A DNA stretch of 44,307 nt from Bacteroidales bacterium (lineage in GTDB: Bacteria; Bacteroidota; Bacteroidia; Bacteroidales; WCHB1-69): positions 1 to 44,307 of the forward strand of contig JAGCVQ010000026.1 in the NCBI GenBank assembly GCA_017962275.1, read 5' to 3'. The notes beneath the pieces were generated by a model, which had not been told where the DNA came from, did no database searches, and saw nothing but the letters and a program-made list of their open reading frames with translations. Both the position numbers and the translations under genes were made by a program. How positions within the stretch are numbered: the stretch's first letter is position 1; each line of letters starts with the position of its first letter. Of this stretch, positions 2-26,387 are shown piece after piece.

Positions 2-3000
2 TGTAAGAATACCGGCACGATGAGAGTCACCGTAAATGTGCCTGTAGATTCGGCTTTTACAATTGATACTTGCGGCAACTACACTTGGCACGGAACGACC
101 TATACAGTCTCAGGCAACTACACTAACAGCCACGAGGATGCCAACGGATGCACCCAAGTGGACACCTTGCACTTGACGATTAATCATACTACCTATGGCG
201 ATACTACGGCGGTCGCTTGCGGAAGCTTCGATTGGTATGAGCATACGGGCATTACCCAATCGTGCGAGAATTTGACCCATACGTTTCCCAACATCGCTGG
301 CTGCGATAGCGTGGTGACGTTGCACCTGATTGTAAACACAACTGAAGGAACTCAGGTTTTTGATACTATCTGTGAAGGAGACATGTATCCATTCTTCGGC
401 CAGCTACTTGATTCGACTGGTGTGTACACTGATACGTTGTTTTCATCGAAGGGTTGTGACAGTGTGGTAACTCTTTTTTTAACGGTAAACCCCACCTATG
501 ACTCTTCTATCACGAGAATAATCTGTCAAGGCGATTCCGTTGTGTTTAATGGAGTCACCTTGAAGTCCTCGGGTGTTTATGTTGACACGTTACAATCATC
601 AGGGAACGGTTGTGATAGCATTGTGACATTGTACCTCACAGTGAACCCTTTGCCGACCGCGCAGATTATCCCAACAGCAGCAACGATATGTGAAGGGGAT
701 AGCGTCACCCTAACGGCCGTTGGAGGCACTACTTACATTTGGTCGAAAGATGACATGATACTTGACAAAACACATACCTTGATTGTTAAGGAAACAGGTG
801 CTTACTCGGTCGAAGTCACTGACACCAATAATTGTTCCGCAATGGCAAACTTTACGTTGACAGTTAACTCACTCCCGAACGTTAGCATAAGTGATAACAC
901 CTCGATCTGTCAAGGCCAGACAACCACCCTTGCTGCTTCTGGTGACGGCAGCTATCTCTGGAGTAATGCCTCCACGCAGACCAGCATCAGTGTTAGTCAA
1001 AGCGGAACTTATACGGTCACAGTTACGAACATGCATAATTGTTCAGCCACTGCTTCTGTCACCGTCACCGTCAACCCACTTCCCATCGTGACCATCACTG
1101 GCGAAAGCAGCATCTGCAAAGACGACTATGCGACGCTTACTGCAACCGGTGCGAGTACGTACCGATGGAATGATGGCAATACGAGTTCTACCAAGACGGT
1201 CAATTCAAATAGCGCGACCACGCTTACTTATTTCGTTACGGGTACGGATAACAATAGTTGTTCGAATACTGCCAACAAGACAGTTACCGTCAATCCAACT
1301 TACAATATCACAGTTTACGACACCATCTGTGATGGTGAAAGCTACAACTTTTTTGGCCAAAGCATAGACTACTCCGTCGGTACAAATACGTTCATAGATA
1401 CGTTGCATACGACTAAGGGCTGCGACAGTGTCATTACCTTGACCTTGACGGTGTATCCGACCTATGACGTTGATACTGCTGCAACCATCTGTCAGGGTGA
1501 TACGTTCCATTTTCTCGACCATCATCTTACAACAGCCGGCAATTACACTTACGTTTTGCAAAGTGTGAACGGCTGTGACAGCGTGATTACCCTTTCTTTA
1601 ACGGTTGACCCAAGCTATCACAGATACATTACAGACACCATCTGCCAAGGCAACACATTCGACTTCAATGGCCGATCGATTTCAACCACAGGCATCTATA
1701 CAGACACATTGCAGACGGTCAAAGGTTGCGACTCCATTGTCACCTTGACCCTCGTTGTCAAACCGAAACATTACTCGGAACTGACCGTAACAGCTTGCGA
1801 TAGCTATAGTTGGAATGACTTGACCTATACTTCGACAGGTGACTATGTACAAACCTTTACAGGATCAAATAATTGTGATTCCATCGTTACATTACATTTG
1901 ACGATAATTCAAAGCAGTACGGCTGTTGACAGTATAACGGCCTGTGATTCATATACTTGGATTAACGGGGTTACATATACAACGAGCAATTATAATGCGA
2001 CATATACGCTTACCAATGCCGCCGGTTGTGATTCGATAGTCACGTTACACCTGACCGTCAACTACAGTGATGTTGGCGATACCACAGCGTTCGCTTGCAA
2101 CAGCTTTGATTGGTACGAACATACCCATCTTACTACGACTGGCGAATACACCCACATATTCGAGAATGCTGCCGGTTGCGACTCGGTTGTGACCCTCCAC
2201 TTGACTGTCGGTCACGACAACACGGGCGACACGACAGCTTTCGTGTGCGACAGTTTCGACTGGTTTGAATATACGAATATCACCCAAAGTGGCGATTACA
2301 CCCATACCTTCACGAATGCCAGCGGTTGCGACTCGGTGGTGACCCTGCATCTGACTATCAGAAATAGCAACACGGGCGAAATCGAAGCCGTCGCATGCGA
2401 CAGCTACGACTGGTACGAACATACAAATATCACCACCTCAGGCGATTACACTCACATATTTACGAATGCCGCCGGTTGTGATTCTGTCGTGACGTTGCAT
2501 TTGACAGTCAATCACAGTGCCATGGGCGATACGACTGCCGTGGAGTGCGAAAGTTTCATCTGGCACGGTGTGGAATACACGTCAACCCCGACCGTCGCTC
2601 CGAAATTCACTTACCAGACGGTGAAGGGCTGTGATTCTGTTGTGACCCTGCATCTGACCATTTATAAACCGCAACATACCGATACCACTGTGGTGGTGTG
2701 CGATGAATATTTTTGGAATGGTGCCACATATACCGGAAGTGGAACCTATACGTTCTCGCATGCGGATGCCGACGGCTGTATTCAAGTGGACACCCTCCAC
2801 CTCACAATCTACCCTTCCTTTATCCTCCAGCTCTCGGAGACAATCTGCCAGAGTGAATTGCCGTACCATTATCTCAACGGCGAAATAGATACCACATTTG
2901 AGACGGGAACACCTCAATCTTCAGAGGTGGACTTTGTGCTTTCAACCGTCAATGGATGCGACAGCGTCATCTCGCTCAGCCTCACCGTCGTCCCCTCTTC

Positions 3001-3484
3001 CTTGCAACAACTCTCCATCGTCGCCAAAACCCATGCCGACGGCACTCCCTATATGCTGATCTACCCGCAGGCGGGGCTTCTCTATCAATGGTATCGGGAC
3101 GGTGACGCGATTTCCGGGGCGACGGGACAGTATTACGTTCCGGAGGATGACCTGCAGACCTCCACTGCTTGTTACCGGGTGCTTGTGCGGCCTGATATTC
3201 TGCATTGCGGCATCATGACGGATTGTTGGGTAAAAACGGATGCTTCCGCCGCAAAAGTGTGCATCCTCCCCAATCCCAATGACGGCAGGTTCAGATTGCT
3301 GCTGCCAGCCGATGCGGTCAGCGTGCGCATCTTCAATGCCAACGGTCAGCTGGTGCTGGCTCAGGAGACGACGGGGGAAATCGAGCTTAACATCTCAGCC
3401 GACCTCGCGAACGGGCTCTACATGGTGCAGGTGCAGCGCGAAAACGGCGAAATCAATACCGAAAAATTAGTAATTAACCGATAA
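2..3484 (+). CDS. Repetitive cell-surface adhesin with type IX secretion C-terminal domain (5' partial)
   Basis: The reading frame is open from base 2, before the first ATG at 20, so this is the C-terminal part of a larger protein that starts outside the window. About 13 units end in a variant of GCDSVVTLHLTVN, typically preceded by a DTTAxxCDSFDW-like stretch. Around residues 215-430 there are three PKD-like modules (ICEGDSVTL...NNCSA). The last 75 or so residues (ILPNPNDGRF... NGLYMVQV... EKLVINR) match the type A sorting domain recognised by the Bacteroidota type IX secretion system, so the product should cross the outer membrane and be anchored to, or released from, the surface. Similar repeats occur in SprB-like gliding and adhesion proteins. 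It ends 22 bases before the ubiquitin-like gene, with no terminator or promoter seen in the gap. The ligand is unknown. Confidence 0.85.
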   Translation, partial: CKNTGTMRVTVNVPVDSAFTIDTCGNYTWHGTTYTVSGNYTNSHEDANGCTQVDTLHLTINHTTYGDTTAVACGSFDWYEHTGITQSCENLTHTFPNIAGCDSVVTLHLIVNTTEGTQVFDTICEGDMYPFFGQLLDSTGVYTDTLFSSKGCDSVVTLFLTVNPTYDSSITRIICQGDSVVFNGVTLKSSGVYVDTLQSSGNGCDSIVTLYLTVNPLPTAQIIPTAATICEGDSVTLTAVGGTTYIWSKDDMILDKTHTLIVKETGAYSVEVTDTNNCSAMANFTLTVNSLPNVSISDNTSICQGQTTTLAASGDGSYLWSNASTQTSISVSQSGTYTVTVTNMHNCSATASVTVTVNPLPIVTITGESSICKDDYATLTATGASTYRWNDGNTSSTKTVNSNSATTLTYFVTGTDNNSCSNTANKTVTVNPTYNITVYDTICDGESYNFFGQSIDYSVGTNTFIDTLHTTKGCDSVITLTLTVYPTYDVDTAATICQGDTFHFLDHHLTTAGNYTYVLQSVNGCDSVITLSLTVDPSYHRYITDTICQGNTFDFNGRSISTTGIYTDTLQTVKGCDSIVTLTLVVKPKHYSELTVTACDSYSWNDLTYTSTGDYVQTFTGSNNCDSIVTLHLTIIQSSTAVDSITACDSYTWINGVTYTTSNYNATYTLTNAAGCDSIVTLHLTVNYSDVGDTTAFACNSFDWYEHTHLTTTGEYTHIFENAAGCDSVVTLHLTVGHDNTGDTTAFVCDSFDWFEYTNITQSGDYTHTFTNASGCDSVVTLHLTIRNSNTGEIEAVACDSYDWYEHTNITTSGDYTHIFTNAAGCDSVVTLHLTVNHSAMGDTTAVECESFIWHGVEYTSTPTVAPKFTYQTVKGCDSVVTLHLTIYKPQHTDTTVVVCDEYFWNGATYTGSGTYTFSHADADGCIQVDTLHLTIYPSFILQLSETICQSELPYHYLNGEIDTTFETGTPQSSEVDFVLSTVNGCDSVISLSLTVVPSSLQQLSIVAKTHADGTPYMLIYPQAGLLYQWYRDGDAISGATGQYYVPEDDLQTSTACYRVLVRPDILHCGIMTDCWVKTDASAAKVCILPNPNDGRFRLLLPADAVSVRIFNANGQLVLAQETTGEIELNISADLANGLYMVQVQRENGEINTEKLVINR
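140..2998 (+). repeat. Degenerate protein-coding repeats in the adhesin
   Basis: Roughly 200-base units each encode a GCDS(V/I)(V/I)TLxLTV ending. At least 13 copies are readable, plus two variants with the ending GC(T/I)QVDTLHLTI near 150 and 2775. The copies between about 2060 and 2510 are the most alike, which suggests recent duplication there. Confidence 0.8.
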
Positions 3485-3506: not shown

Positions 3507-3827
3507 ATGGAAAGAGACGACTTTTACCTCAGAGTGCATTACAAGAACAAGACCATCCGCTATAAGCTGATTGATCCCAACGCCACGTTGAATGTGCTGA
3601 TGCAGAACCTGCGCCACAGCACGGATGAGAACGGAAAAGCCATTTTTGACCTGCCGAACGTCGATAAAGACGGGGTGGTGGTGGAATATTTCTTCGGTAA
3701 GAAAGACGAGAACGACAATTTCATCATCCTGAACCCTAAAATCGGTAAAACGGAGTGCTGCCTGCGCGACTACAACGTGAAAAGCGGTGACACTTTGGAA
3801 GTGATTATGGATCCCATTGCTGGCTAA
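3507..3827 (+). CDS. Ubiquitin-like beta-grasp protein
   Basis: This 106-residue protein has the layout of a ubiquitin-like modifier: an N-terminal beta hairpin (YLRVHYKNKTIRYKL), a helix-like stretch (ATLNVLMQNLRHS), and a C-terminal half that lines up without gaps to the end of ubiquitin (LRDYNVKSGDTLEVIMDPIAG compared with LSDYN...STLHLVLRLRGG). The chain stops at Ala-Gly, so a C-terminal glycine is already exposed and could be adenylated by the E1 encoded at 11967. It lacks the usual di-glycine. The internal loop around residues 40-65 is longer than in ubiquitin. The E2 gene follows 6 bases later. A YukD/EsaB-like non-conjugated protein is the main alternative, but the adjacent E2, E1 and JAMM genes favour a conjugated modifier. 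Confidence 0.83.
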   Translation: MERDDFYLRVHYKNKTIRYKLIDPNATLNVLMQNLRHSTDENGKAIFDLPNVDKDGVVVEYFFGKKDENDNFIILNPKIGKTECCLRDYNVKSGDTLEVIMDPIAG

Positions 3828-3833
3828 AAAATT

Positions 3834-4433
3834 ATGAGAGAAGTAGAAAAATACAAAGACAAACATTTTATTGGTCGGAATGCACGGCTTCTGAACGAAT
3901 GGATGTCTATCGACGAACGCTATATGCACAATCCGGAGGTGAGCTACATTATCCGGAAACGGAATGCCGAAGGACTCCCTGTTATCTATGAAATCATCTT
4001 CAACATCAAGTCGTTCTGCGGGGTGGGGGAGGCTGACGAGAACGGATGGCAGCGGCCGCTTTTCCACGACGAGTTCATCATGCGCATCATCATCCCCAAC
4101 AACTATCCGGGCGTGGATTCCAAGCTGGAGTTCAAGTTCCTCACCCAGACCCCCACGGGTTTCAAGATACCCCATCCGTGGCATCCGAACATCCGCTATT
4201 TCGGGGATTTCGCCGGACTGGTGTGTCTGAACACCAACGCCTGCGGAAGCTATACCGATTTGTCGTTTTACATCAACCGGGTGGTTTCCTATCTGAAATA
4301 CGAGAAGTACCACGCTTTGAATACGCCTCCTTATCCGCAAGACAACAAGGTGGCGGAGTGGGTGCTGGACCAGGCGGAACCCAACGGCTGGATTACGGAA
4401 CTGCAGGAGTATCATAATTTACAAAACGAGTAA
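3834..4433 (+). CDS. E2 (UBC-fold) ubiquitin-like conjugating enzyme
   Basis: A 199-residue protein with the core E2 signature. HPN occupies residues 117-119, and the predicted catalytic cysteine is Cys131 in GLVCLN, matching the HPN...G.(I/V)CL pattern of eukaryotic E2s. Upstream, the FIMRIIIPNNYP segment matches the E2 strand that leads into the conserved Y-P turn. The spacing from Asn119 to Cys131 is about four residues longer than in typical E2s. An expected C-terminal helical part follows (SFYINRVVSYLKYE). The enzyme would take the ubiquitin-like protein from the E1 as a thioester and pass it to a lysine, probably with the RING protein of this operon. It lies between the modifier gene (6-base gap) and an exported protein (6-base gap). 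Confidence 0.87.
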   Translation: MREVEKYKDKHFIGRNARLLNEWMSIDERYMHNPEVSYIIRKRNAEGLPVIYEIIFNIKSFCGVGEADENGWQRPLFHDEFIMRIIIPNNYPGVDSKLEFKFLTQTPTGFKIPHPWHPNIRYFGDFAGLVCLNTNACGSYTDLSFYINRVVSYLKYEKYHALNTPPYPQDNKVAEWVLDQAEPNGWITELQEYHNLQNE

Positions 4434-4439
4434 AAGACA

Positions 4440-5840
4440 ATGAAAAAATATTTGCTGATTTTCTTTTCGATTCTCTGTCTGAATGCGCTTGTTGCGCAGA
4501 ATGACGTGGTGCTCTCCTATACAGTGGAGCCTGAGAAAACACAACATATCCCGGTCATTCTTCGGGGACCCTCCAACGACTGCCCAAGCATCCCTTTGAT
4601 GTTGGAGGCCACATACGATCCCCAACAGGACTTTATTACGGTGGTGGTGCATAGCCGCTACGAGAGGCCGCTCAAGAAGAAAGACCAGATCACACACCTT
4701 TGGTGCCCCTCATCCCTGAGTGGGAGCCAGCTTGACGACCAAATGCTGACCGAACATTTCAAACAGTTTTACAGGTCTAAACTGAGCATGACGGCGGATA
4801 TGAAGTCCCAACTGAAAGCGGGCTTTACGCCCAAGCCCGCTTTTGAGTGTGTCAATGGATGGCTGTATAATGAGAAAGAGTCGGATCTGATGATGAACCT
4901 CGCGCCCGACAGGGTGATTGTCCTTAAAATCAAAATCACCAACGCAAGCGTGCCTACCATCTTGAAAATCAACAATATAATTCCGATCAAGGCGAAGTAC
5001 GATTTCCCGCAATTCTTCAACAAAGTCTCGTTGCAATACATTTCCAACAACTTCTCCATTTCGTTGAAATTGCCGGAAAGCAATTGCTTCGGACAGCACG
5101 AAATGATCAGCAAATACAGGCAATGGAATGAGAGCTTGACCAATGATTATCAGAAACTCCTTGATTTTCAAATTGAAAAGAGGGATCCTTCAGGTACTTC
5201 CAAAGAGGTTGTCTTGAAGAAGTTGGAACTGTTGAACAAATATGAGACCGCCCGTAAGGGGATTGTGGAAACCGATTGCGGGGAGTTGACGCAGGAGTAC
5301 GCTACTTTCTACCGTTACTATGACAAGATTGGGGAAGGCATTGTGACAGCGGACTCCTTGCAACGGATGATTACGCAGATGGATGTGCTTATTGATGATA
5401 TCTCCATCGCCAAGAACACTGGCAATGGCAAAGCGTGCCGTAAATACAAGGAAGGCGCGGCCAAGTTCAATGATGTGACGGTGGATGAGACGTTATACAA
5501 GGATTTCCCTGAATTGAAAAGTCTGGCAAAGCGTTTTATAGAACGGAGGCAGATGCTGAACAACCTGAAATGTCCCGGATCCGGCGGTGAACAGGTGCCC
5601 GGAACCGGTGGCCGGTGCAATTTTGACTCCGAGAAAATCAAGTCCGCCACATTGAAAATCAACAGTCTGCTGAATGAATACCGCGTCAAGAAAGTCAAGA
5701 ACGAGCAAAAGTTCTATGCTGTTGTGAAAGAGGCGGATGCCTACCTGAAAGGCTTTTCGGATCCGTGCACGAAAAAATATCAAAAAGTCATCCAACAATA
5801 TCAGGATGCCAAAAAGGCATATCAGAATGTCGTAAAATAG
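4440..5840 (+). CDS. Exported protein of unknown function in the ubiquitin-like operon
   Basis: I do not recognise this 466-residue protein. It starts with a clear signal peptide (MKKYLLIFFSILCLNALVAQ), so it should be periplasmic or at the outer membrane. Residues about 20-215 look like mixed beta structure; the rest is mostly charged and helical, with a short glycine-rich break (PGSGGEQVPGTGG) near residue 382 that probably separates two helical segments. No transmembrane segment follows the signal peptide and no enzyme motif is visible. It starts 6 bases after the E2 stop and ends 4 bases before the next gene, so it is very likely co-translated with the conjugation genes. A structural or ligand-binding role in the envelope part of the system is an inference from position only. 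Confidence 0.7.
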   Translation: MKKYLLIFFSILCLNALVAQNDVVLSYTVEPEKTQHIPVILRGPSNDCPSIPLMLEATYDPQQDFITVVVHSRYERPLKKKDQITHLWCPSSLSGSQLDDQMLTEHFKQFYRSKLSMTADMKSQLKAGFTPKPAFECVNGWLYNEKESDLMMNLAPDRVIVLKIKITNASVPTILKINNIIPIKAKYDFPQFFNKVSLQYISNNFSISLKLPESNCFGQHEMISKYRQWNESLTNDYQKLLDFQIEKRDPSGTSKEVVLKKLELLNKYETARKGIVETDCGELTQEYATFYRYYDKIGEGIVTADSLQRMITQMDVLIDDISIAKNTGNGKACRKYKEGAAKFNDVTVDETLYKDFPELKSLAKRFIERRQMLNNLKCPGSGGEQVPGTGGRCNFDSEKIKSATLKINSLLNEYRVKKVKNEQKFYAVVKEADAYLKGFSDPCTKKYQKVIQQYQDAKKAYQNVVK

Positions 5841-5844
5841 CGGT

Positions 5845-6618
5845 ATGAGAACACGTAGGACCCTTGTCGTTATATGGTTTTTCTTGTTGGCGTTGACACC
5901 CACTTGGGCGTTTTCGCAGAGTGGTTATGCGGATTCGGTCAAGGAGATCAAGAGCGAGCTGAAAAACTATTTGTCGCAGTTGGAGACCATCGAGAAAAAT
6001 CTCGTCACCTATTCGGATTACGAGCTCTACTCCAGCACATATCGGGATTGCGTGGAGCGGATGGACGTTTATTATGAGACCAACAAATCGTTTATCACAC
6101 TTGAAAGTCAGTTGTTGTTCGACATTTGGTCGGAAATCAAAGATTTGCGTGAAGACATAGATGAGAAGATTGAGACACTCCGGCAGGAAGCCCAGGCCGA
6201 GGCCCTCACACGGGAGCTAGAGACGGATTTTTCATTGACCGCTCTCAAATACGATCAATTCGCTGCAACCTTCCAGCAGCTGCCCCAAATGAAGAGAAAG
6301 GTCGCCAAAGACACCCTCGCTGCATTGAAAAGCAGAGACATGGAGCTTTATCCGGTCTATGCCGCACAAAAAATCCAGCACAAGGACATTATCGCGCAAA
6401 ACCCGCTTCTGGACTCCCTTTGCAAGCGAATCGACAGCTGCCATAAAACCATCAGTGAAGCGCAGAACATTGAAACCGTCAAATGGGGTGACATCATTTT
6501 CAAAGTGACCATTGTGGCGGCTTTGTTGGCTTTCTTGATAAATCTTATTGTGAGTAAGAAAAAACTTAATAATCAGCTGAATGGAAAGAAGAAAAATAAA
6601 CATATACCATCGATATAG
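5845..6618 (+). CDS. Coiled-coil periplasmic protein with C-terminal membrane anchor
   Basis: A 257-residue protein of unknown function. An N-terminal hydrophobic signal (about residues 7-24, ending TWAFSQS) is followed by about 190 residues rich in Lys, Glu, Leu and Gln with heptad-like spacing (VKEIKSELKNYLSQLETIEKN, shown only in part), suggesting long helices. A single membrane segment (IIFKVTIVAALLAFLINLIV) lies near residues 217-236, and the tail is strongly basic (KKKLNNQLNGKKKNKH). The predicted layout is periplasmic helices with a short cytoplasmic tail. It could act as a strut or partner for the membrane-anchored JAMM and RING proteins encoded next; that is inference. The gaps are 4 bases on each side. 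Confidence 0.7.
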   Translation: MRTRRTLVVIWFFLLALTPTWAFSQSGYADSVKEIKSELKNYLSQLETIEKNLVTYSDYELYSSTYRDCVERMDVYYETNKSFITLESQLLFDIWSEIKDLREDIDEKIETLRQEAQAEALTRELETDFSLTALKYDQFAATFQQLPQMKRKVAKDTLAALKSRDMELYPVYAAQKIQHKDIIAQNPLLDSLCKRIDSCHKTISEAQNIETVKWGDIIFKVTIVAALLAFLINLIVSKKKLNNQLNGKKKNKHIPSI

Positions 6619-6622
6619 TGCC

Positions 6623-8254
6623 ATGAAACGGTATCTTAGAATTGCAATCGCCGTCATGCTGTTGTCATGTACGGCCATGGTGTCGTCGGCTCAGAGCAAG
6701 GGTATTGCAGCCGTCTATTATGATGCCCAAACGCGGGAATTGACGATTGACAGACCGATGAATCTCTGCAAAATCATCTGCACGGAGGATATGCCTGTTG
6801 CGTTGAGACGATTTGTCGGTGATTCCTGCAAGATTTTGGAACAAAACAAGAAATACGTTGCTCCGAACATCACTCCCGAAGAGATGGCTGGCTACGATTC
6901 CCTCACGGTCTATTTCAGAAATGCGCAAAAGATGGAGGTTTATGATCAGCCTTACAGGGTGAAAATCGACATCCGAAACCTGATTGAGGAGGAAAAAGAG
7001 AAGGAGACGAAGAAAGTTCCGTTCTATGCCAAATGGCTTGCGCTGGGGAAATCGGTGATTTATTTCGCTTCGGGAGGCTTTCTGTTGCTGGTTGCGCTGT
7101 TGGTTACTCTGTTATTGCTTCGAAGGAAACGGAAAGTGAAGAATGACAGCACGGAGGAGAGCCTTCATGTGATGCAGGTGGTGGAGGAGGAGCAAAACGA
7201 TTATGCTGTCGGGTTGGACTATATTCGGGAGCATCCGGAGGGCTATTTTGCCGTGGATATGGAGGAGTTCAGTCTTGACACGGCGGTGAAGAAGGTCTAT
7301 TTTTCGCGGGAGGCGGTGAAAAGTCTCAACAGTTACTATAAGGCCTTCCTTGAGCAGCCTGAGCGCACCAACGAAACCGGATGCTACCTGATTGGTGGCT
7401 GGGAAACCGTGGACGGGAATGACGAGCAGTACAATATAAGTGTTGAAGAGATGGTGATTCCCGGCGATGATGCGGTTTACGACGAATATTCCCTGAATTT
7501 CGGGCTCAAAATCGGCATTAAGTTAGGAAGTGCCATCCGAAATCTTTGCGAGAAGACGGGTCGGGATTATGTGCACACCGTCTGGATGCACTCCCATCCG
7601 GGCTTAGGTCTGTTCCTGTCTTCCCATGATTTGGTGGTCCAGAAGCAGCTCGCTTACCCCGATGCGCCCAAACGCATGGTGGCCATCGTGATTGACACCA
7701 ACACTCCGAACTGGCAGATGGCCTTTTTCACGGCCAAGAACAGCGGGGTGATGAACAACAAGGAGGATTTGCTCAAAACCATCTCCTTTGACGTGCTGAA
7801 CGAGTGGAGCCGGCATAAGGCGGTCGCGGCGCCGTCGTCGGCCACGGTGGAAAACAGCCTCATCGTATCCACAGAAGATGCGCGGGACGAGTTTGCCTTT
7901 TCCGCCAAAACCATCAACCAGATTGACGATGCGGTTTATGCGGAGGCTGCGGAAGAATCCTGTCCTCTATATGGGGAGATTCGCCTGAACGAAGAGAAAA
8001 AGACCCGTGTGGTTACGGCATGCGGTATCTCTGGCGACGACAAGCAGATTGGCTTGCTGGTGGTGGATCCCGACACAGAGGAAGCCTTTGACCCGCATCG
8101 TTGCGACGAGAGCCTTACCCAAGTTGACTTCTGCTTGGTGTATCGTTCGGAACAAGAATGTTATGTGGTTTGGCAGAACGCTGATCGGAAAATCAGGTTT
8201 TTGCACACTTCCCTCAAGGAAATGAAGGAATGGACCCGAAGAAAAAGAGTATGA
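6623..8254 (+). CDS. Membrane-anchored JAMM/JAB deubiquitinase-like protein
   Basis: Starting at 6623 (543 residues) gives a good signal peptide (MKRYLRIAIAVMLLS...SSAQS); an in-frame ATG at 6581 would add 14 residues overlapping the previous gene. A periplasmic domain of about 115 residues is followed by a membrane segment near residues 143-168 (SVIYFASGGFLLLVALLVTLLLL) with a basic RRKRK stop-transfer. The cytoplasmic part carries an intact JAMM zinc-protease motif, H-x-H-x7-S-x2-D: His323, His325, Ser333 and Asp336. Glu261 in LIGGWET is the likely catalytic glutamate. Such enzymes cut isopeptide bonds of ubiquitin-like proteins or trim their precursors. Because the modifier already ends in Gly, deconjugation is the more likely role. 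The gene overlaps the RING gene by 4 bases (ATGA). Confidence 0.9.
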   Translation: MKRYLRIAIAVMLLSCTAMVSSAQSKGIAAVYYDAQTRELTIDRPMNLCKIICTEDMPVALRRFVGDSCKILEQNKKYVAPNITPEEMAGYDSLTVYFRNAQKMEVYDQPYRVKIDIRNLIEEEKEKETKKVPFYAKWLALGKSVIYFASGGFLLLVALLVTLLLLRRKRKVKNDSTEESLHVMQVVEEEQNDYAVGLDYIREHPEGYFAVDMEEFSLDTAVKKVYFSREAVKSLNSYYKAFLEQPERTNETGCYLIGGWETVDGNDEQYNISVEEMVIPGDDAVYDEYSLNFGLKIGIKLGSAIRNLCEKTGRDYVHTVWMHSHPGLGLFLSSHDLVVQKQLAYPDAPKRMVAIVIDTNTPNWQMAFFTAKNSGVMNNKEDLLKTISFDVLNEWSRHKAVAAPSSATVENSLIVSTEDARDEFAFSAKTINQIDDAVYAEAAEESCPLYGEIRLNEEKKTRVVTACGISGDDKQIGLLVVDPDTEEAFDPHRCDESLTQVDFCLVYRSEQECYVVWQNADRKIRFLHTSLKEMKEWTRRKRV

Positions 8255-10695
8255 ATAAAACAGATAAAGCTATGAAAAAACAGTTGGTTTTCGTGATTAC
8301 CGCGTTGTTGCTCCTTGGAACATCATGCCAGCGGGGACAACAGGGCGGACAGCCACAACAGCCCGTCGCGGCAACGTCGGATTCGATATCCGTCGTGCAA
8401 CTCTCAAAATCCGACAAGGCGGACACGCTCTATGTGGATTTCAAGATTCTGGATGCGTCGGGCAAGAAGAAGTTCGTCGATCAGCTCAACGCGGGCAGTT
8501 TTTCTGTGTCGGACGTGAGCGCTATGGGGCAGAATATGTCTCCCAAGGTGGATTCCGTTATCGACATCCGCCAGAAAAAGGTCATTTCCGACCAGATTTC
8601 CATGCTCTTCTTGGTGGACAGAAGCGGGAGCATTTCACCGAATGAATTGCTGGAGCAATACACCCAGATTTGTAACATCATAGAGATTTTGCCAAACACC
8701 AAGATCTATCTGTCGTTCATGGACAGTACCGTGACCCCGAGTCTGTTGGCTACGAAAGAGAACATGAAGTTCAAATTTTATGAGGAGTTTGTCGTCAAAG
8801 AGGGTACGGAGAAGTATCTCTACAAGGCGATTATGGCCAAGATAGAGGAGTTGTCTGGCACCCCCGGATTGCACTACCCCGAGGTGCCGCACAATCCTGC
8901 TTTTCAGGACTCCACCCAGAAAATGCTGTTTGTGTTAACGGACGGCAAGGTGATGAATGCTGACGGCACGTTTATCGGAACCGACTTCTTCAAGTGGAAG
9001 GAGGAGATTTGGGAACTGTCGGAAAAGCAGGCGCATTCGGAAATCCCATACGTTCCGATTCATTGTATCTATATCGGAGACCCTGGCGCCACGGCAAATA
9101 TCAAGGACGAAATGGAGGCGCTTTGTGCATCCGCGCCCACAAAGGACGCTCTGAAAGGACAGTTCCACACCCTGTTCGATGTTGCGCAGTTGCAGGAGAC
9201 GCTGATGGGAACCATCGACTCCATTGCCGCCGACTATAGGTTGGTTCTGGTGAATCCTGCAGGCAAAACGTACGACGGCACGCAACGTTTGCTTACCGTC
9301 ACGCTGAAGGACAATGGCTCCGTGTTGGCGCAAGGAGTCATGAACTATGCGTTTGGGAACCAGCATGTTCCGATTGTTGTGGCATCAGAGGGCTCAAACA
9401 CTTCGAACAATCGTACGATTCTTGCTGGTTTGCTCTACGGCTTGATTTTCATTTTGTTGGCTTATCTGATCATGCAATATTTAGTGCCATGGATTAAATA
9501 CAGGATATTCTGCAAGAAATATATCGTGGAGTATCGTGGTGGCAGCGGCAGTTCTGCGGTTGAGCAACAGCATTGTTATCATTGCAAGGAACCTTTCCAA
9601 AATGGGGATAAGATTGTGGTGAAGTGCGAACATGTAGTGCATCTGGAGTGTTGGGAGGAGAATCGGAACCGCTGTCCGGAATACGGCATCCACAACTGCT
9701 CCAAGGGAATCCATTACTACAACAAGGAGCAACTTTCTGACCCGCGAAACGCCCCCTACTTTGTGATGTGGATGGTCTATGGCCTGATGGCGGGCTTGGT
9801 GTCATGGCTCTTCATGCGGCTTTGCTACTCTGAAACCTTGTTTTCGTCAATGATTATTGGTCTTTTGGGACTGCTGCGGCCGGCTGAAACGCTACAAGGA
9901 TTCACCACCTTGTCGTTTGTCTCCAAAATCCAGTCCATGTTGCTTTGCGGCATTCTGTTAGGATTTTTCATCACCCTGTTTTTCAGCTATCAGATTGAAT
10001 TCAGGAAGAAGAATTTCAAAATCTGGTGTCAGATGCTTTTGCGTGCCGTGGTCGGCAGTGCGGTAGGATTCGTTGCCTTCCTGCTCGGTGCCGTGGTGAT
10101 CATCCTTTTGGGCAAGGAAACCAACTGCATCTACACCGACTGGATTCCGTGGGCGTTGTTCGCTGTCGGTATTGCCTTTACCCTTTCTTTCAAAACGGAC
10201 ATCAACCTCAAGAGTGCTTTGATTGGCGGATTGATTTCCGTGCTGATCAGTTTCGTGGTGCTCTATCTGGCCACTTTCGCCAAAGAGGTGCTCAGCATGT
10301 TCAGCTACATGATTTACGCCGCCGGCTTCGGAATCGCTATCGCGGTGGTGCATTTCGTTTCCGAAAAGTACTTCTTGCGCATTTCCGGTCCTGTGAAGGA
10401 ACGTGATATCGCCATATACAAATGGATGAGTGTTACGGGCGGTTTCAACAAAGTGACCATCGGCAAATCCATTGACTGCACTTTGGAGATGAACTGGGAT
10501 GATGCCGTGACTATTGCCGACAAGCAGGTGGAGATTTACTTGGAGAACGATCGTCCCTATTGTTGTGCCCTCACAGACGGCACTCGTCTGCCTAATGGAC
10601 AAGTGATGCAGAAGGGCCAGACGATCTTGCTGAACCATGGTACGGAATTTACCATCGGGAATACGTTGTTTACCTATATTGAAAAAGACAAATAG
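8251..10695 (+). CDS. vWA-RING-FHA membrane protein, candidate E3 ligase and sensor
   Basis: The chosen start at 8251 makes an ATGA overlap with the JAMM gene and gives 814 residues; an upstream ATG at 8230 is also in frame. A lipoprotein-type signal ends at Cys26 (LLLGTSC). Next comes a vWA domain with an intact metal site (Asp123-x-Ser125-x-Ser127 and LTDG at Asp231), expected in the periplasm. A membrane helix near 390-415 leads to a RING-H2-like zinc module: Cys442, Cys445, Cys459, His461, His464, Cys467, Cys475, Cys483. About six or seven further membrane helices follow (residues 505-715), then a C-terminal FHA-like domain (about 722-812, KVTIGKSID...NGQVMQKG...FTIGNTLFTYIE). The final Cys pair is spaced 7 rather than 2, so a RING-like treble clef is possible. 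The phosphothreonine-binding site of the FHA looks altered (ADKQ in place of SxxH). Confidence 0.83.
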   Translation: MNKTDKAMKKQLVFVITALLLLGTSCQRGQQGGQPQQPVAATSDSISVVQLSKSDKADTLYVDFKILDASGKKKFVDQLNAGSFSVSDVSAMGQNMSPKVDSVIDIRQKKVISDQISMLFLVDRSGSISPNELLEQYTQICNIIEILPNTKIYLSFMDSTVTPSLLATKENMKFKFYEEFVVKEGTEKYLYKAIMAKIEELSGTPGLHYPEVPHNPAFQDSTQKMLFVLTDGKVMNADGTFIGTDFFKWKEEIWELSEKQAHSEIPYVPIHCIYIGDPGATANIKDEMEALCASAPTKDALKGQFHTLFDVAQLQETLMGTIDSIAADYRLVLVNPAGKTYDGTQRLLTVTLKDNGSVLAQGVMNYAFGNQHVPIVVASEGSNTSNNRTILAGLLYGLIFILLAYLIMQYLVPWIKYRIFCKKYIVEYRGGSGSSAVEQQHCYHCKEPFQNGDKIVVKCEHVVHLECWEENRNRCPEYGIHNCSKGIHYYNKEQLSDPRNAPYFVMWMVYGLMAGLVSWLFMRLCYSETLFSSMIIGLLGLLRPAETLQGFTTLSFVSKIQSMLLCGILLGFFITLFFSYQIEFRKKNFKIWCQMLLRAVVGSAVGFVAFLLGAVVIILLGKETNCIYTDWIPWALFAVGIAFTLSFKTDINLKSALIGGLISVLISFVVLYLATFAKEVLSMFSYMIYAAGFGIAIAVVHFVSEKYFLRISGPVKERDIAIYKWMSVTGGFNKVTIGKSIDCTLEMNWDDAVTIADKQVEIYLENDRPYCCALTDGTRLPNGQVMQKGQTILLNHGTEFTIGNTLFTYIEKDK

Positions 10696-10701
10696 CCGGC
10701 T

Positions 10702-11970
10702 ATGAGATATTTGAGATGTGCAATTGGACTTTTGTCTTTTCTGTGCTGCGTGAATATTCTTTTGGGACAGAACGTGGTCACAGGAAAGTACAAAGGCCAT
10801 ATTGTCAAAATGAAGTTCTATAAGGGCAGTCCTGATGATATCCAATATTTGGAGTATGGTCTGGTAACGGAGTTGAACAAGACTGTGACACGGTTGGAGA
10901 AAGAGAAGTCCTCCCTCCAGAAAGAGTTGAACAAATTGAAAGGGAAAACTCCGGTGCAGGATGACAGCCTCCAGATGGAGTTGATTATCAAGGAACGTGA
11001 TTTGCTTGCGCGGGAGCGGACAATTGACTCGCTGAACGAACGGGTGGATGTGATTTCCGCCTCGCTGCAAATGCTCCGGGACAGCCTGGCTACCTTGGAA
11101 AAAGTCACCCCGAGAGTCAGAAGTCTTTCGGCGGATTGTTCGCACTTCGGGGTAGGCTATAGCATCGGAATTCCTCTGGCCTTTAGCACTATCTTGGGTC
11201 AAAAGAACGTGTCGGGGCAATCTGTTTGGAATCGCCGGATGACCCTTTCCCATCAAGTCGGCATCTTCTGGGGAAGCCGTTCCTTGGTGCGGAAGGGCTC
11301 GTTGTCGTTAGGGGCCGGTGTGGAGTACAGTAAAATGCAGTTTGCGGCTGGGGCTGGCCAGACCTCAGATACATTCGACAATGCGATGGATCGGGACCAA
11401 GACAATTACATTGCTTACCTGACTGGCCATAACATGGAAGAACGGGCCACAATGCATTATCTGAGCATCCCGCTGACGCTTTCCGTGGGCCAACCCTATC
11501 ATGACCGGGTCAGTGGCTACTTCCAGCTCGCTATCGTCCCCTCCTTTTGTGTTTCATCGTTGCTTAATGTGTCGGGATATTATGACTTGTCAGGGTATTA
11601 CCCACAATATCAACTCACTTTGAGCAATTTTGAATCATTAGGTTTTGTGTCCGATAATAGTATCGGGCAAATGGATGAAGCTCTGAATGTCAACCGGTTT
11701 TTGCTGGCAGGTCGATTGGCAGGTGGTATATACTTGCCACTGTGCCGGACAAGTCAGGGCGAAACCTCGCCTTGGGTGCTCAAATTGGGGGCAAAGCTGG
11801 ATTTCTCTATCACTCCGATGGCGAAGGGAGTGCATGACAAGGCTCCTTTCCAAGATGCGACAGCACACCTGAATCAAAACAACTTTCTGGCAAGTGATGG
11901 TTGTCGCTTCTTGAATCCCGCGTTGGAAGTGGGCATTATGTATATTTTCGGAACTAAAAATTTACGATGA
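10702..11970 (+). CDS. Exported coiled-coil protein with outer-membrane beta-barrel-like domain
   Basis: A 422-residue protein with a signal peptide (MRYLRCAIGLLSFLCCVNILLGQ). Residues about 45-135 form a strongly predicted coiled coil (LNKTVTRLEKEKSSLQKEL and following). From about residue 148 to the end the sequence alternates in the manner of a small outer-membrane barrel (FGVGYSIGIPLAFS, LSLGAGVEYS, HYLSIPLTLSVGQ, RLAGGIYLPL, PALEVGIMYIFG). The likely arrangement is an outer-membrane barrel with a coiled-coil arm reaching into the periplasm, which could bridge towards the inner-membrane RING and JAMM proteins. No family was recognised. It sits 6 bases after the RING gene and overlaps the E1 gene by 4 bases. 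Confidence 0.72.
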   Translation: MRYLRCAIGLLSFLCCVNILLGQNVVTGKYKGHIVKMKFYKGSPDDIQYLEYGLVTELNKTVTRLEKEKSSLQKELNKLKGKTPVQDDSLQMELIIKERDLLARERTIDSLNERVDVISASLQMLRDSLATLEKVTPRVRSLSADCSHFGVGYSIGIPLAFSTILGQKNVSGQSVWNRRMTLSHQVGIFWGSRSLVRKGSLSLGAGVEYSKMQFAAGAGQTSDTFDNAMDRDQDNYIAYLTGHNMEERATMHYLSIPLTLSVGQPYHDRVSGYFQLAIVPSFCVSSLLNVSGYYDLSGYYPQYQLTLSNFESLGFVSDNSIGQMDEALNVNRFLLAGRLAGGIYLPLCRTSQGETSPWVLKLGAKLDFSITPMAKGVHDKAPFQDATAHLNQNNFLASDGCRFLNPALEVGIMYIFGTKNLR

Positions 11971-13169
11971 TGGCAAACGAACAAAGAGAGTGGGGCGCAG
12001 GCGTCTTTTCGCTGCTCTCCTGGTTTAAGCAAGAAAATGTGAAGAAGGCCAAAGTGATGGTCGTCGGGGCGGGCGCATTGGGCAACGAGGTGCTGAAAAA
12101 CCTCGCCCTGTTCGGCGTGGGCAACATTTACATCGTGGATTTCGACACCATCGAATATTCCAATCTCACCCGTTCCATCCTTTTTCGCGAGTCAGATGCG
12201 GACAAAGGGTTATATAAGGCGGAAGTGGCCGCCAAACGCATCAAAGAAATCAACAAAAACATCAATGTGCAATACATTGTGGGCAATCTGAGCTCGGATG
12301 TTGGTCTTGGCGTGTACAAACAGATGGATGTGGTCATTGGTTGTCTCGACAGTCGTCTGGCCCGCCTTCAGTTGAACCGCCAATGTATGCGTGCCGGTGT
12401 GCCTTGGGTGGACGGCGGCATTGAGGACTTGAACGGCGTGGTGAAAGTCTTCAAACGCGGCGTGAACTGCTACGAGTGCGGACTTTCGGATACGGCCAAG
12501 CACAACCTGTTCCAGAAGATGTCGTGCGCCGGCGTGGCCAAACGCAACGAGGATGCGGGACGCATTCCCACCACGCCTGTGATAGCCTCCATCATCGGAG
12601 CGGTGCAGACGCAGGAAGCGATGAAACTCCTTCACCCGGAAGAACTTTATAAGGGCAACCTGACCTCCCTTTGCGGTCAGTGGTTCCATTACGAAGGAAT
12701 GCACAACAATGTGAAGATTTACAAATCAACCGCTTATCATAACGATTGTCCGTCTCATGAGTATTGGAAGCCCGTGTTCAAGATTCCTCAGCTCTCGGCC
12801 GATATCACCGTTGAAAACTGTATCGCCATGCTCAAGGACCTGTTGAATGTGGAGAGCGTGGAAATCAATCTGCGAAACGATCGGTTTGTGGACAAAATCG
12901 TTACCCGCAACGACAACCAGTGCTTCAAACCGATGCTTCCCGAATCCAAGATTCCCGACTACATAGACTCTAATCCCCAGCTGTATTGCCGATTGCGCAT
13001 GGATCTCAACCAGAACACGTATGAGAACATTGACGAGGAATTCCCTTACCAGCAATTGACGTTAAAGGAAATAGGTATTCCCTACTTCGATGTTCTCCAA
13101 ATCACGACCGAGTCTGGATATTTTTATGTGGAGCTGACCAAAGACGAGGCCAAATATCCTTTCCAATAA
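11967..13169 (+). CDS. E1-like activating enzyme (ThiF/MoeB/UBA superfamily)
   Basis: A 400-residue enzyme with the Rossmann adenylation fold: GAGALG at residues 34-39, Asp58 and Asp60 after strand 2, then Asn66, Arg69 and Lys84 in the ATP-handling positions and Asp128 in GCLDSR. A zinc-type CYEC pair is at 168-171. Cys187 in MSCAG lies where MoeB-type E1s have a reactive cysteine, ahead of the conserved PTTPVIASIIGAVQTQEAMKLL segment. The C-terminal 150 residues are an extra domain ending in beta structure (LKEIGIPYFDVLQI...YFYVEL), possibly analogous to the ubiquitin-fold domain that recruits E2. It would adenylate the C-terminal Gly of the modifier and form the E1 thioester. No ThiS, MoaD or cofactor gene is nearby, which argues against a thiamine or molybdopterin role. 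Confidence 0.92.
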   Translation: MMANEQREWGAGVFSLLSWFKQENVKKAKVMVVGAGALGNEVLKNLALFGVGNIYIVDFDTIEYSNLTRSILFRESDADKGLYKAEVAAKRIKEINKNINVQYIVGNLSSDVGLGVYKQMDVVIGCLDSRLARLQLNRQCMRAGVPWVDGGIEDLNGVVKVFKRGVNCYECGLSDTAKHNLFQKMSCAGVAKRNEDAGRIPTTPVIASIIGAVQTQEAMKLLHPEELYKGNLTSLCGQWFHYEGMHNNVKIYKSTAYHNDCPSHEYWKPVFKIPQLSADITVENCIAMLKDLLNVESVEINLRNDRFVDKIVTRNDNQCFKPMLPESKIPDYIDSNPQLYCRLRMDLNQNTYENIDEEFPYQQLTLKEIGIPYFDVLQITTESGYFYVELTKDEAKYPFQ

Positions 13170-13185: not shown

Positions 13186-13980
13186 ATGAGATTCAATCAG
13201 AAATATGATTCGATAGGCGATTTGAAAGCCGAGACTTGGATGAACACGTATCTTCCCGATAACGTGCCCGTTCGGGTTAGCTCGAAAGGAATCTTCTACA
13301 GCAACTATTGCGAAGATCTTTTGGAGGTGGATACGTCTGCGAAGGAAGTAAACGTCTCTTTGTCGCGTGACGGGCTGTTTCACTTGCTCCCGGAGGCCCT
13401 TTTCGTGGATGAGAATTACCTGCGAGACCCGAAACGGAAACACAAGCCTTTCACTCCCGAAAAAGAGCGCATCCTGAACTTCTTCACTCCCTTTGATTCG
13501 GAATATTTTCAAGTCACCCTTGGATTGGACCGGGTGGTTCAGGATTTTGAATCCGATTTGGTGGATGTGTTGCTGAAATCTCTCTATGATATTGATGCAC
13601 AGGCGATTCAGAACCCGGAAGTCAAAAAAGCACTCCCGTTGTTGTTGCAAGCTTCCGAGATCAGAGGCGATTATGTGCTGATAGGAAGGCTGATGACAGC
13701 CATAACAGGTTTCCAGGCCCAAATACAGCGGGTTTTCAGGACTTTCCCCGATAATGCCGGGAATGAATATGGGACGGTCGTTGCCAGAATCGTTTTTTAC
13801 ATTCCCTCTTTGACAAATACCGAGTATTCTTCCCTTTATGATGAATTGGGCGAGTTTGTTCAATTTATCGCCGAATGGTTTTTCCCCGTTGAACAGGCTT
13901 TTGAATATGCGATAAAAGAAGAGGGGCGTCCTTTTGTTTTGGATGGAACCCTTACGTTGGATTATAACACTTATCTTTAA
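13186..13980 (+). CDS. Type VI secretion baseplate protein, TssG-like
   Basis: A 264-residue cytoplasmic protein with no signal peptide. The N-terminal region contains NVPVRVSSKG and NVSLSRDGLFHLLPEALF, which resemble the TssG pattern of an arginine-containing strand followed by an FGLTGPSG-LP loop, in the form expected for Bacteroidota systems. The C-terminal half is helical with no recognised motif. The call is supported mainly by the following TssK-, TssE- and TssF-like genes. In type VI secretion TssG joins two TssF subunits in the wedge of the baseplate. It starts 16 bases after the E1 stop, the largest gap inside the operon, yet no promoter motif is visible there. Confidence is moderate because similarity is weak. 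Confidence 0.55.
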   Translation: MRFNQKYDSIGDLKAETWMNTYLPDNVPVRVSSKGIFYSNYCEDLLEVDTSAKEVNVSLSRDGLFHLLPEALFVDENYLRDPKRKHKPFTPEKERILNFFTPFDSEYFQVTLGLDRVVQDFESDLVDVLLKSLYDIDAQAIQNPEVKKALPLLLQASEIRGDYVLIGRLMTAITGFQAQIQRVFRTFPDNAGNEYGTVVARIVFYIPSLTNTEYSSLYDELGEFVQFIAEWFFPVEQAFEYAIKEEGRPFVLDGTLTLDYNTYL

Positions 13981-13984
13981 CAGT

Positions 13985-14887
13985 ATGATGACTTTTGATA
14001 GAATTGACTGGAAAAGAGGCATGGAAATCATGCCGGAAACCTTTCTTTATGCGGATGGTTATCACGACAGTGTCAGTCGATTAAACCGCCAGCTGTTGGT
14101 GCCTTTCGCATACGGTTTGGTGCCTTTGCATGACTTCACGTTGAAATACACAATTACCGACCAAAAACTCACGATTGACAAAATATCCTGCACCATTATG
14201 GATGGCGAAGGGAATGTTCTGCATATCACGAAAGGAATCTTTCTGCCGTTGCCTAAAGAGGTACAAGGAACCTTCTATTTGGCTGTATCATGCGGGGAAG
14301 ATGATCATGTAGAGAAAAATGGTGTTCCTATGCTGGAACAAGGCTATAAATTCCAAATTATCAATCTGTTGAACCCCTGCTCTCCGTTTTTGTTCCCGTT
14401 GTTGAAACTACATGCGGAAAATGGAGACTGGGAAGTCGTGGACTTCATTCCGCCTTGTTGCGTGCTCAGCGCCCATTCGGATTTGAGCAACTTGTCCAAC
14501 CAATGCAGGCAATGCTTGGGGAAGATTCTCGATCTTGTTGAAAAAAAAGGGGATAAGGATGCTTATTATCAAATCGGCTATCTCTTCATCGAGATGTCTA
14601 ATTCTTTCCGATACGACACTCCTGCAATGCTCATTTCCTATTTGAAAAAAGCGGTTTTCATTCTCAAATCGAATGATTTTTTCAACGGCTCAGATGATGA
14701 ATTGCTTGATAGGGCAGGGGAGTTTGTTCAGCTTGAGTATAACCCGAACGCACTCTTCGAAACCATTCAGGAAGCCTTGTCGTATCTTCATGCCGCACTC
14801 GCCTTTCTCCAGCAGACCAAACCGGAGCCGGTAGTGGAGAAGCCTAAGCCCGAGCCAGAGGAAGAGGAATTCACGTATATGTTGTAA
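13985..14887 (+). CDS. Type VI secretion baseplate protein, TssK-like
   Basis: Translation from 13985 gives 300 residues starting MMTFDRIDWKRGM; an upstream ATG at 13934 lies inside the previous gene. The first 80 residues follow the TssK pattern: an I-x-W-x-x-G-M start, a segment with F-x-x-x-D-x-Y-H, an aromatic PFAYGLVPL motif, then a beta strand ending in MDGEGNVL, equivalent to the pDG turn of TssK. Canonical TssK is about 440 residues, so this is a short form. Its tail is an acidic, proline-rich EKPKPEPEEEE stretch. TssK connects the baseplate wedges to the membrane complex. Here the classical TssJLM partners are absent, as is usual in the Bacteroidota subtype. Gaps are 4 bases before and 2 bases after. 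Confidence 0.62.
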   Translation: MMTFDRIDWKRGMEIMPETFLYADGYHDSVSRLNRQLLVPFAYGLVPLHDFTLKYTITDQKLTIDKISCTIMDGEGNVLHITKGIFLPLPKEVQGTFYLAVSCGEDDHVEKNGVPMLEQGYKFQIINLLNPCSPFLFPLLKLHAENGDWEVVDFIPPCCVLSAHSDLSNLSNQCRQCLGKILDLVEKKGDKDAYYQIGYLFIEMSNSFRYDTPAMLISYLKKAVFILKSNDFFNGSDDELLDRAGEFVQLEYNPNALFETIQEALSYLHAALAFLQQTKPEPVVEKPKPEPEEEEFTYML

Positions 14888-14889
14888 CG

Positions 14890-15324
14890 ATGTACATTAA
14901 GATACCCTTTCAGATTGTGAACGGCTCTGTGGAGCAAGAGACGGACATCAAGAAATCGGTTGACCGCTTCATCGATTTGCTGATAGCCACCCCGATGGGG
15001 CATTTCAAGGCAGATCCCGATTTCGGTTTCGTGTTCAAGAATTTCCGTTTCGAGAATTTTGATGAAAAAAAGCGCACGATAGCCTATAGGAAGGCGGACG
15101 AACCCATGAACGATTTCAAGATTACGGGGTCGAGCAAGAACCCCAAGAACTTTGCATACGCTTTGAAACGCAATATAGAAATGTATGAGCCGCGAATGGA
15201 TGTGAGTGAGGTCACGATGGATTATGATTCAAAAAAACATAATGTCAAACTGTTGATTTCAGGGCTGATTAAAGGGGAAAAGACGCAAAACTACAGTCAC
15301 GAGGTCAATTTTTATGTGTGGTAA
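14890..15324 (+). CDS. gp25/TssE-family baseplate protein
   Basis: A 144-residue protein with the gp25-like (GPW/gp25) layout: an N-terminal DIKKSVDRFIDLLIATPMG helix-turn, then ADPDFGFVFKNFRFENF, and a C-terminal beta region. In phage T4, R-type pyocins and type VI systems this protein sits at the baseplate-sheath junction and starts sheath polymerisation. It lies 2 bases after the TssK-like gene and 1 base before the start chosen for the TssF-like gene. A phage or extracellular-injection origin is possible, but the TssK- and TssF-like neighbours favour type VI secretion. No sheath gene (tssBC) follows within the window. Confidence 0.73.
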   Translation: MYIKIPFQIVNGSVEQETDIKKSVDRFIDLLIATPMGHFKADPDFGFVFKNFRFENFDEKKRTIAYRKADEPMNDFKITGSSKNPKNFAYALKRNIEMYEPRMDVSEVTMDYDSKKHNVKLLISGLIKGEKTQNYSHEVNFYVW

Positions 15325-15325
15325 T

Positions 15326-17107: not shown

Positions 17108-17118
17108 CCCAAAGGAGT

Positions 17119-26340: not shown

Positions 26341-26387
26341 CAGCATAATTGAATCGAGTATAAAACAAGTTGACAACCCCTTCAACA

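Follow-up and report, generated by a model that had tools for sequence, protein, structure and literature searches.

The closest described systems to the locus studied here are the type VI secretion system (T6SS) of subtype iii and the ubiquitin-like operons of archaea and bacteria. The locus is located on contig JAGCVQ010000026.1 of the Bacteroidales bacterium assembly GCA_017962275.1 (WCHB1-69), analysed over its full 44,307 nucleotides (the window), and the element in question is a block of eight genes at 3507-13169 coding for a candidate ubiquitin-like conjugation pathway. In the T6SS-iii of Bacteroides fragilis and its relatives, the available part of Bongiovanni 2024 (PMC10781749) describes the membrane complex, whole or in part, in all loci, with tssN and tssP in nearly all of them and tssN consistently placed between tssK and tssG; the main text mentions ubiquitin twice, both times for the ubiquitin-like fold in EccD/TssN. 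The locus type studied here shares TssC (PF17541), VgrG, a ClpV-like ATPase and the baseplate genes with T6SS-iii, and differs in that TssN, TssO and TssR gave no match above cut-off and the eight-gene ubiquitin-like block is found instead. Because these membrane-complex proteins were not found, we call the locus T6SS-iii-related and not a plain member. Our somewhat favoured reading is that the distal half of this Bacteroidota-type VI secretion locus carries its own ubiquitin-like conjugation pathway, which would form an envelope-side module.

The operon of Caldiarchaeum subterraneum, as presented in the available part of PMC5654768, contains ubiquitin, E1, E2 and a RING protein, with an Rpn11/JAMM protease adjoining; its RING protein is small and its mature modifier ends in GG. 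Here, by contrast, the RING segment is part of a vWA/transmembrane (TM)/FHA-like protein, the JAMM protein has a TM segment, and the genes lie in a T6SS locus. The same source cites bacterial operons that are complete, E2 and E3 homologues included, and likewise combine ubiquitin-like components with a RING protein; RING proteins in bacteria are known from earlier comparative genomics (a reference in PMC11354881) and from the Pfam name Prok-RING_1. The statement of the first-pass annotation, made from the DNA alone, that bacterial operons usually lack an E3 has to be narrowed, since some complete ones were already known. The Bil operon (BilABCD), in the part of PMC11354881 available, also unites modifier, E1, E2 and JAB, with two Ub-like domains in BilA and a CEHH motif in BilB. 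In the window, the 106-aa modifier has one domain, the E2 has HPN and a cysteine, a RING protein is added, and by eye the aligned E2 sequences have no CEHH pattern after Cys131. The cap2/cap3 type of cyclic-oligonucleotide-based anti-phage signalling system (CBASS) features a CD-NTase with a fused E1-E2; here E1 and E2 are separate genes, and no CD-NTase was among the matches listed for the 10 proteins scanned.

These differences bear on whether the block is an anti-phage ubiquitin-like system of Bil or CBASS type that happened to land in a T6SS locus. Ubiquitin-like conjugation does serve defence in other bacteria (PMC10097602, available part), and the E1 matches the PADLOC E1-E2 models. The strong PADLOC matches came, however, from the E1 domain only among the 10 proteins scanned, the modifier and E2 misfit the Bil features tested, and the gene order between T6SS genes is fixed in 12 loci. 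We rejected an anti-phage context because of the T6SS flanks, and consider it very improbable; the earlier comparison with Bil and CBASS was misdirected, the block belonging to a type VI secretion locus.

The eight genes code, in order on the + strand, for the modifier, the E2, an exported protein of 466 aa, a 257-aa protein bearing signal and TM segments, the JAMM protein, the vWA-RING protein, a 422-aa exported protein and the E1. The genes for the five pathway components have few-base gaps or overlaps with their neighbours. The first-pass annotation had read five ubiquitin-pathway classes in one same-strand run, which family profiles, conserved residues and a beta-grasp model bear out; the T6SS baseplate genes right after the E1 were absent from it. 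The components are in all likelihood a modifier, E1, E2, E3-like and JAMM set.

The modifier (3507..3827) ends in -DPIAG. In the family profile, A4, its residues 70-101 aligned with ubiquitin 41-72 over equal spans. Single ubiquitin scored E ~0.02 against this profile, designed ubiquitin variants ~1e-4, and polyubiquitin chains 5e-13, with no single stretch of the chains passing alone. The AlphaFold2 model (predicted local distance difference test, pLDDT, 84) exhibited one domain whose strands and helix follow the order of a beta-grasp fold. Among the best 50 of 849 Foldseek matches, ubiquitin-like folds (SUMO, ubiquitin, bacterial Ubl) were abundant; the two below 0.001 were both talin FERM heads, and SUMO, the bacterial Ubl 8tyx, ubiquitin and EccD followed at 0.0018-0.01. 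The C-terminus in A4 is IAG in seven of ten members and VPG in L029, and residues extend past the glycine in L026 and L031. The window modifier thus combines a predicted beta-grasp fold with a C-terminal glycine.

In the E2 (3834..4433), the WHPN motif and Cys131 are invariant in all ten aligned sequences, so that the HPN and catalytic cysteine read at first hold. PF00179 matched 8/10 family members at E<=0.1 (best 9.6e-9); the window E2 alone matched no Pfam family, PF00179 included, and the family profile reached E2 structures of the PDB at 5.6e-9. A tandem pair of E2 genes, both matching the family, was seen in L024 (9998-11126, genome G465). The E1 (11967..13169) matched ThiF at 2.5e-54 in the Pfam scan. 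Its single-sequence PDB search placed SUMO E1 subunit 2 on top (1.4e-24) with MoeB behind (4.5e-21), and its family profile UBA7 (2.8e-31) and UBA1 (3.5e-31) on top, with MoeB at 5.9e-27. Lys84 and Cys187 are invariant in 11/11 sequences, and Cys187 is presumably the catalytic cysteine; E1 and E2 both carry the catalytic residues of the pathway. For the conserved C-terminal extension of the E1, profile searches gave no convincing known domain; a ubiquitin-fold domain there looked likely by eye and was dropped, the profile searches giving it no support.

The JAMM/JAB protease gene (6581..8254, likely start 6623) encodes a signal segment, a TM segment at 153-184 and then the JAMM part. The ligands Glu, His, His, Ser and Asp, which the earlier reading had found complete, are invariant in the 13 aligned sequences, and the family profile matched RPN11 at 4.3e-12 as well as CSN5. 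The window protein alone gave a weak Prok-JAB score (0.028, below cut-off).

The candidate membrane E3 (8230..10695, likely start 8272) is arranged as vWA, TM, RING, several TM segments and an FHA-like part. The zinc module claimed for it stood as far as the ligands go: seven are invariant in 13/13 sequences and the eighth nearly so, and all eight are found in five (L061, L065, L070, L072, L096) of seven further homologues, L065 being the same locus as L024. The assignment to a RING family is less firm, since the last ligand pair is C-x7-C rather than C-x2-C, the window protein matched Prok-RING_1 (PF14446) at 0.0016 with 18.8 bits, below the curated cut-off of 29.1, and the matches at E<=0.1 in 12/13 family members were all weak. 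The six PDB matches, every one a RING-finger protein, were likewise weak (0.012-0.073). RING identity is weakly indicated by the zinc ligands and these scores. The N-terminal vWA part was found by Foldseek and by PF00092 (1.2e-6; two of 13 members). The model of this protein (pLDDT 64 overall) is usable for vWA and middling for RING; its C-terminal part is mostly <50, and we therefore assign no fold to the FHA part. A plasmid search with this protein gave no match.

Hydropathy gave TM segments in both the E3-like protein and the protease, which had been proposed to lie in the membrane. The RING protein has a TM segment at 394-424 and further segments up to 712; its N-terminal hydrophobic stretch is shorter and under threshold, and looks by eye like a signal segment. 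The JAMM protein and the 257-aa protein (5845..6618; 6-25 and 212-241, followed by a basic tail), which has homologues, each have a signal segment and a single TM segment after it. The 466-aa exported protein (4440..5840) has a signal segment as its single hydrophobic segment (residues 1-26), no Pfam family, and homologues in the same position. The 422-aa exported protein (10702..11970) has a signal segment, weak coiled-coil Pfam matches and homologues, and is possibly an outer-membrane barrel. From this topology, vWA would be periplasmic, and the RING, JAMM and C-terminal part of the RING protein cytosolic.

The modifier is identical at 106/106 residues in five genomes of one genus (the window and L013-L016), and its pairs differ at 5-42 codons, all synonymous; L013-L015 are mutually close (5-12), the window and L016 distant (32-42). 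Against the window, the proportion of synonymous differences (pS) was ~0.5 and that of nonsynonymous differences (pN) 0 in each of the four genomes, with pN of 0.0085-0.062 for E2, 0.010-0.049 for E1 and 0.196-0.266 for the 422-aa protein. Within one genus, the modifier sequence is conserved as strictly as that of eukaryotic ubiquitin. This freeze is not uniform across the family, since identity between the five-genome group and L017 or L023 is ~60%. Between the window and L015, the 466-aa, TssG and TssK genes are nearly identical DNA (pS under 0.04), whereas the modifier (0.53), E2 (0.48) and 422-aa protein (0.75) are far diverged in pS, which suggests recombination within the locus.

Such low pN in E1, E2 and modifier argues against secreted effectors directed at the ubiquitin of rumen protozoa or hosts, as do the TM segments of the E3-like and JAMM proteins and the completeness of a set that includes its own modifier. 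Ruminants (yak, reindeer, goat, water buffalo, sheep) are named in the records of 5 of 14 relatives, as effectors of this kind would have it, and we still find the idea scarcely credible.

We then consider the linkage to the T6SS. Four baseplate genes follow the E1 on the + strand (13186-17107), TssE being recognised by Pfam, TssK weakly by NCBIfam, and TssF, TssG and TssK by iterated profiles. The TssG-like protein (13186..13980) matched no Pfam or NCBIfam family; its iterated profile reaches the tssK-adjacent gene of TssN-type loci (L073, 1e-82, L073 itself being a member of the profile), and its name follows from gene order as in PMC10781749. TssK (13934..14887, start probably ~13985) matched TIGR03353 at 1.4e-7, below cut-off, and its iterated profile reaches the TssK of TssN-type loci (L048, 2e-95). 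TssE/gp25 (14890..15324) matched PF04965 above cut-off (9.2e-8) and TIGR03357 below it (3.5e-6). The TssF-like protein (15314..17107) had no fitting match in the family scans; its iterated profile reaches the gp25 neighbour in TssN-type loci (L073, 7e-219), and its name also comes from gene order.

In relatives, as far as the fetched stretches extend, the order is ClpV-TssB-TssC-Hcp-Hcp2-VgrG-PAAR-like-(effectors)-modifier-E2-466-257-JAMM-RING-422-E1-TssG-TssK-gp25(TssE)-TssF. The 466- and 257-aa genes were unrecognised in L070 and L072, the 257-aa gene in L064/L065, the 422-aa gene in L070 and the PAAR-like gene in L072. ClpV-like and VgrG were assigned by Pfam in L033, TssC by PF17541, TssB and Hcp by order and eye, and the PAAR-like protein by order and eye and also as DUF4280. 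PF17541 was used for Bacteroidota in place of the classical VipB model PF05943, which detected the E. coli control and gave 0 matches in the window's own genome.

TssC was found in 11 of 16 related genomes and in four more E2 carriers from a Bacteroidales sample. Of the 15 genomes with both, 13 have TssC and E2 on a single contig (G456-G460, G462-G465, G488, G617, G680, G824); T6SS genes lie on both flanks of the block in 12 of these 13, the contig of G680 stopping within the block. G454 and G461 have E2 and TssC on separate contigs, the E2 contig stopping ~2 kb and ~6 kb upstream, and G000 and G455 have E2 and T6SS-side genes with no TssC match on contigs that start just upstream of the block. 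In one genome, G461, a second, more divergent modifier/E2/JAMM/RING set (L096, L097) and a second TssC-bearing contig were seen. The Bacteroidales sample of 393 genomes, which was not selected for the association, contained TssC in 17, E2 in six (the own genome, G050, G488, G617, G680, G824) and both in four. Own genome excluded, TssC occurs in 4/5 E2 carriers against 17/392 (p 1.2e-5, ignoring relatedness). A functional link of the block to the T6SS is very likely.

The link could also be one of cargo labelling, the modifier being put on effectors, Hcp or VgrG and sorting or holding these at the injector. VgrG and the PAAR-like protein are encoded just upstream of the block, and in L015 the intervening gene before the modifier matches a Tle1-like lipase; a relative in genome G123, described below, has as neighbours a PAAR protein and a core protein of an extracellular contractile injection system (eCIS). 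On the other hand, the genes between PAAR-like and modifier vary by locus (by eye), in contrast to the modifier, which does not change within the genus, and the baseplate genes are on the other side of the block, which makes cargo labelling improbable.

TssN (PF17555) was found in none of the 17 genomes chosen for E2. It was present in 7 of the 17 TssC-bearing genomes of the sample, of which the four E2-bearing ones were all negative, and in none of the 15 genomes carrying both TssC and E2, nor in the own genome. TssO (PF17561) was above cut-off in 0/15 carriers against 7/7 TssN-bearing controls (5.9e-6, ignoring relatedness), with a sub-threshold match in G454 (24.7 bits against 29.2, a 601-aa frame on another contig), and TssR (PF17643) in 0/15 against 3/7; neither was above cut-off in the own genome. 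TssP and TssQ were tried with single-sequence models on fetched loci only. Since TssN was the criterion for choosing the controls, its contrast is in part a product of that choice; this applies less to TssO.

A TssC tree of 25 proteins, unrooted and leaving out the TssN-type rows of G584 and G688, splits the TssN-type from the ubiquitin-type rows by a 100/100 branch. On one side are six TssN-type rows (five genomes) and two with neither, on the other 15 ubiquitin-type rows with G410 (neither) and the ungrouped G461b. Two changes were counted for the ubiquitin label, G488 being drawn beside the TssN side, with a long-branch warning.

Our best reading is a membrane-bound ubiquitin-like cycle serving, perhaps replacing, the T6SS envelope anchor. 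In its favour we count the shared contigs and sample-wide co-occurrence of TssC and E2, the lack of TssN, TssO and TssR matches above cut-off, the invariant key residues, the unchanging modifier, the profile matches to protein-conjugating E1 and E2, RING and JAMM proteins, and a related set near an eCIS in G123. We infer conjugation, its substrates and a part in anchoring or gating as follows. The E1 would adenylate the C-terminal glycine of the modifier and hand it via Cys187 to E2 Cys131. The vWA-RING-FHA-like protein, with vWA in the periplasm and the RING and C-terminal parts in the cytosol, would recruit the charged E2 at the inner membrane, where the modifier would be put on a T6SS component, whether the baseplate, a membrane partner or the E3 protein, until the JAMM protein in the membrane takes it off again. 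Together with the three exported proteins, the cycle would form an envelope-side module that assembles or gates the baseplate where the genome has no recognisable TssN, TssO or TssR. We judge it an even call that the block provides the anchoring function or stands in for it. A more specific form, somewhat unlikely, makes conjugation itself the docking step: free modifier, membrane E3 and JAMM would give a reversible T6SS dock replacing TssN; PMC10781749 (available part) compares the cytosolic domain of that protein to a baseplate-docking ubiquitin-like fold.

Several results weigh against this reading. The own assembly has no TssC (PF17541 0), its contig beginning inside the locus: the window starts at base 1 and anything upstream is cut off. 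The block is rare and patchy, since a narrower E2 model matched 3/395 genomes of a phylum sample and E2 was found in 5/36 genomes of the genus, the own genome counted in both. In G466, E2 is located at a contig end and followed by unrelated genes. The enzyme set occurs without TssC in G050, G123 and G217, and the RING homologues of G123 and G217 have lost zinc ligands. TssC with neither TssN (Pfam) nor E2 was found in G410, G677 (65% complete), G685, G707, G710 (TssC a fragment) and G767; a genome can therefore lack TssN without having the ubiquitin block, and divergent TssN may escape Pfam. Comparing profiles of the block envelope proteins with TssN/O/P/Q/R gave no similarity, the best probability, RING with TssN, being 7%. 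Homology thus found no support and only shared architecture is left, TssR also having vWA and TssN several TM segments in the available part of PMC10781749. FHA matched at E<=0.1 in 2/13 RING-protein members (best 4.2e-5).

Some of these results favour a post-translational regulator of an ordinary T6SS, in which vWA senses an envelope signal, conjugation switches baseplate assembly or firing, and unrecognised or divergent membrane proteins do the anchoring. Other T6SS are controlled by kinase, phosphatase and FHA proteins. The two FHA matches fit such control, as do the TM segments in both the conjugating and the deconjugating proteins, and the six TssC genomes without TssN and block indicate that other anchors may exist. 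In one of them, G685, kinase-, FHA- and PP2C phosphatase-like open reading frames were seen by eye beside the T6SS (L068 16350-19999), a further point for regulation. A regulator leaves the TssN, TssO and TssR non-match in all 15 carriers unexplained, and we find it rather unlikely compared with an envelope-side module.

The sets outside T6SS loci differ in their surroundings. In G123 (L029 8634-15728, also L080/L081), the E1, modifier, E2, JAMM and a vWA-RING homologue without the RING zinc ligands adjoin a PAAR protein, an eCIS core domain protein (PF13699) and an nSTAND protein, with genes for the sheath, gp19 tube, gp25, spike and Pvc16 located upstream, ~19 to 27 kb from the E1. G217 has a like arrangement with the same ligand loss, its fetched stretch stopping short of the eCIS core. 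We dropped a complete RING set at an eCIS-linked locus as a candidate, the ligands being missing in L029 and L031; by eye, the degenerate segment of both presumably resembles a metal-free U-box. This loss leaves our confidence in the favoured reading unchanged, because that confidence rests on the T6SS-linked members, which kept their ligands. In G050 (=G467; L011 1548-18543, L012 3181-6884), SrfB and SrfC adjoin the enzyme set, and additional Ubl-like and JAB genes were seen there; in L012 these include a separate JAB protein (PF01398 7.8e-6) and, by eye, a protein made up of two Ubl-like repeats and an extension.

The remainder of the window was read as follows. The run ends with an NlpC/P60 cell-wall hydrolase gene (17077..17619, + strand; PF00877 1.5e-21), in the same position in L007-L010, and housekeeping-looking genes (YidC, ParA/ParB) follow by eye. 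Ahead of the modifier, a repeat protein with a type IX secretion sorting tail is encoded at 20..3484 on the + strand (PF18962 4.8e-11, TIGR04183 6.1e-10), its true start possibly lying beyond the contig end; a sorting-tail protein also precedes the modifier in L015 (923 aa, PF18962 2e-7), and in other loci by eye. A large MscS-type mechanosensitive channel protein is located at 26370-29045 (PF00924 8e-9).

Among the matches listed from the open-access literature, no report linking a ubiquitin conjugation operon to a T6SS or eCIS was found, older prokaryotic RING work (PMC5938088) lying outside the scope; in the parts available, PMC8213781 has ubiquitin in one reference title only and PMC12210884 has none. 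Among these matches, the T6SS-ubiquitin linkage is apparently unreported; bacterial operons with E2 and E3 were already known.

To our knowledge, the role of bacterial ubiquitin-like pathways with an E3-like protein is largely open. With such a pathway tied to one defined machine, the likely substrates come down to a short list and the outcome can be seen in sheath assembly, Hcp release or killing; the block also becomes a candidate for the envelope anchor of T6SS without recognisable TssNQOPR. If the docking form of the reading is right, Bacteroidota T6SS would fall into two deep classes, one TssN-anchored and one ubiquitin-anchored, and a related module would serve an extracellular injection system too. 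The locus suggests that a ubiquitin-like tag helps to run the contact-dependent toxin injector of a gut-type bacterium.

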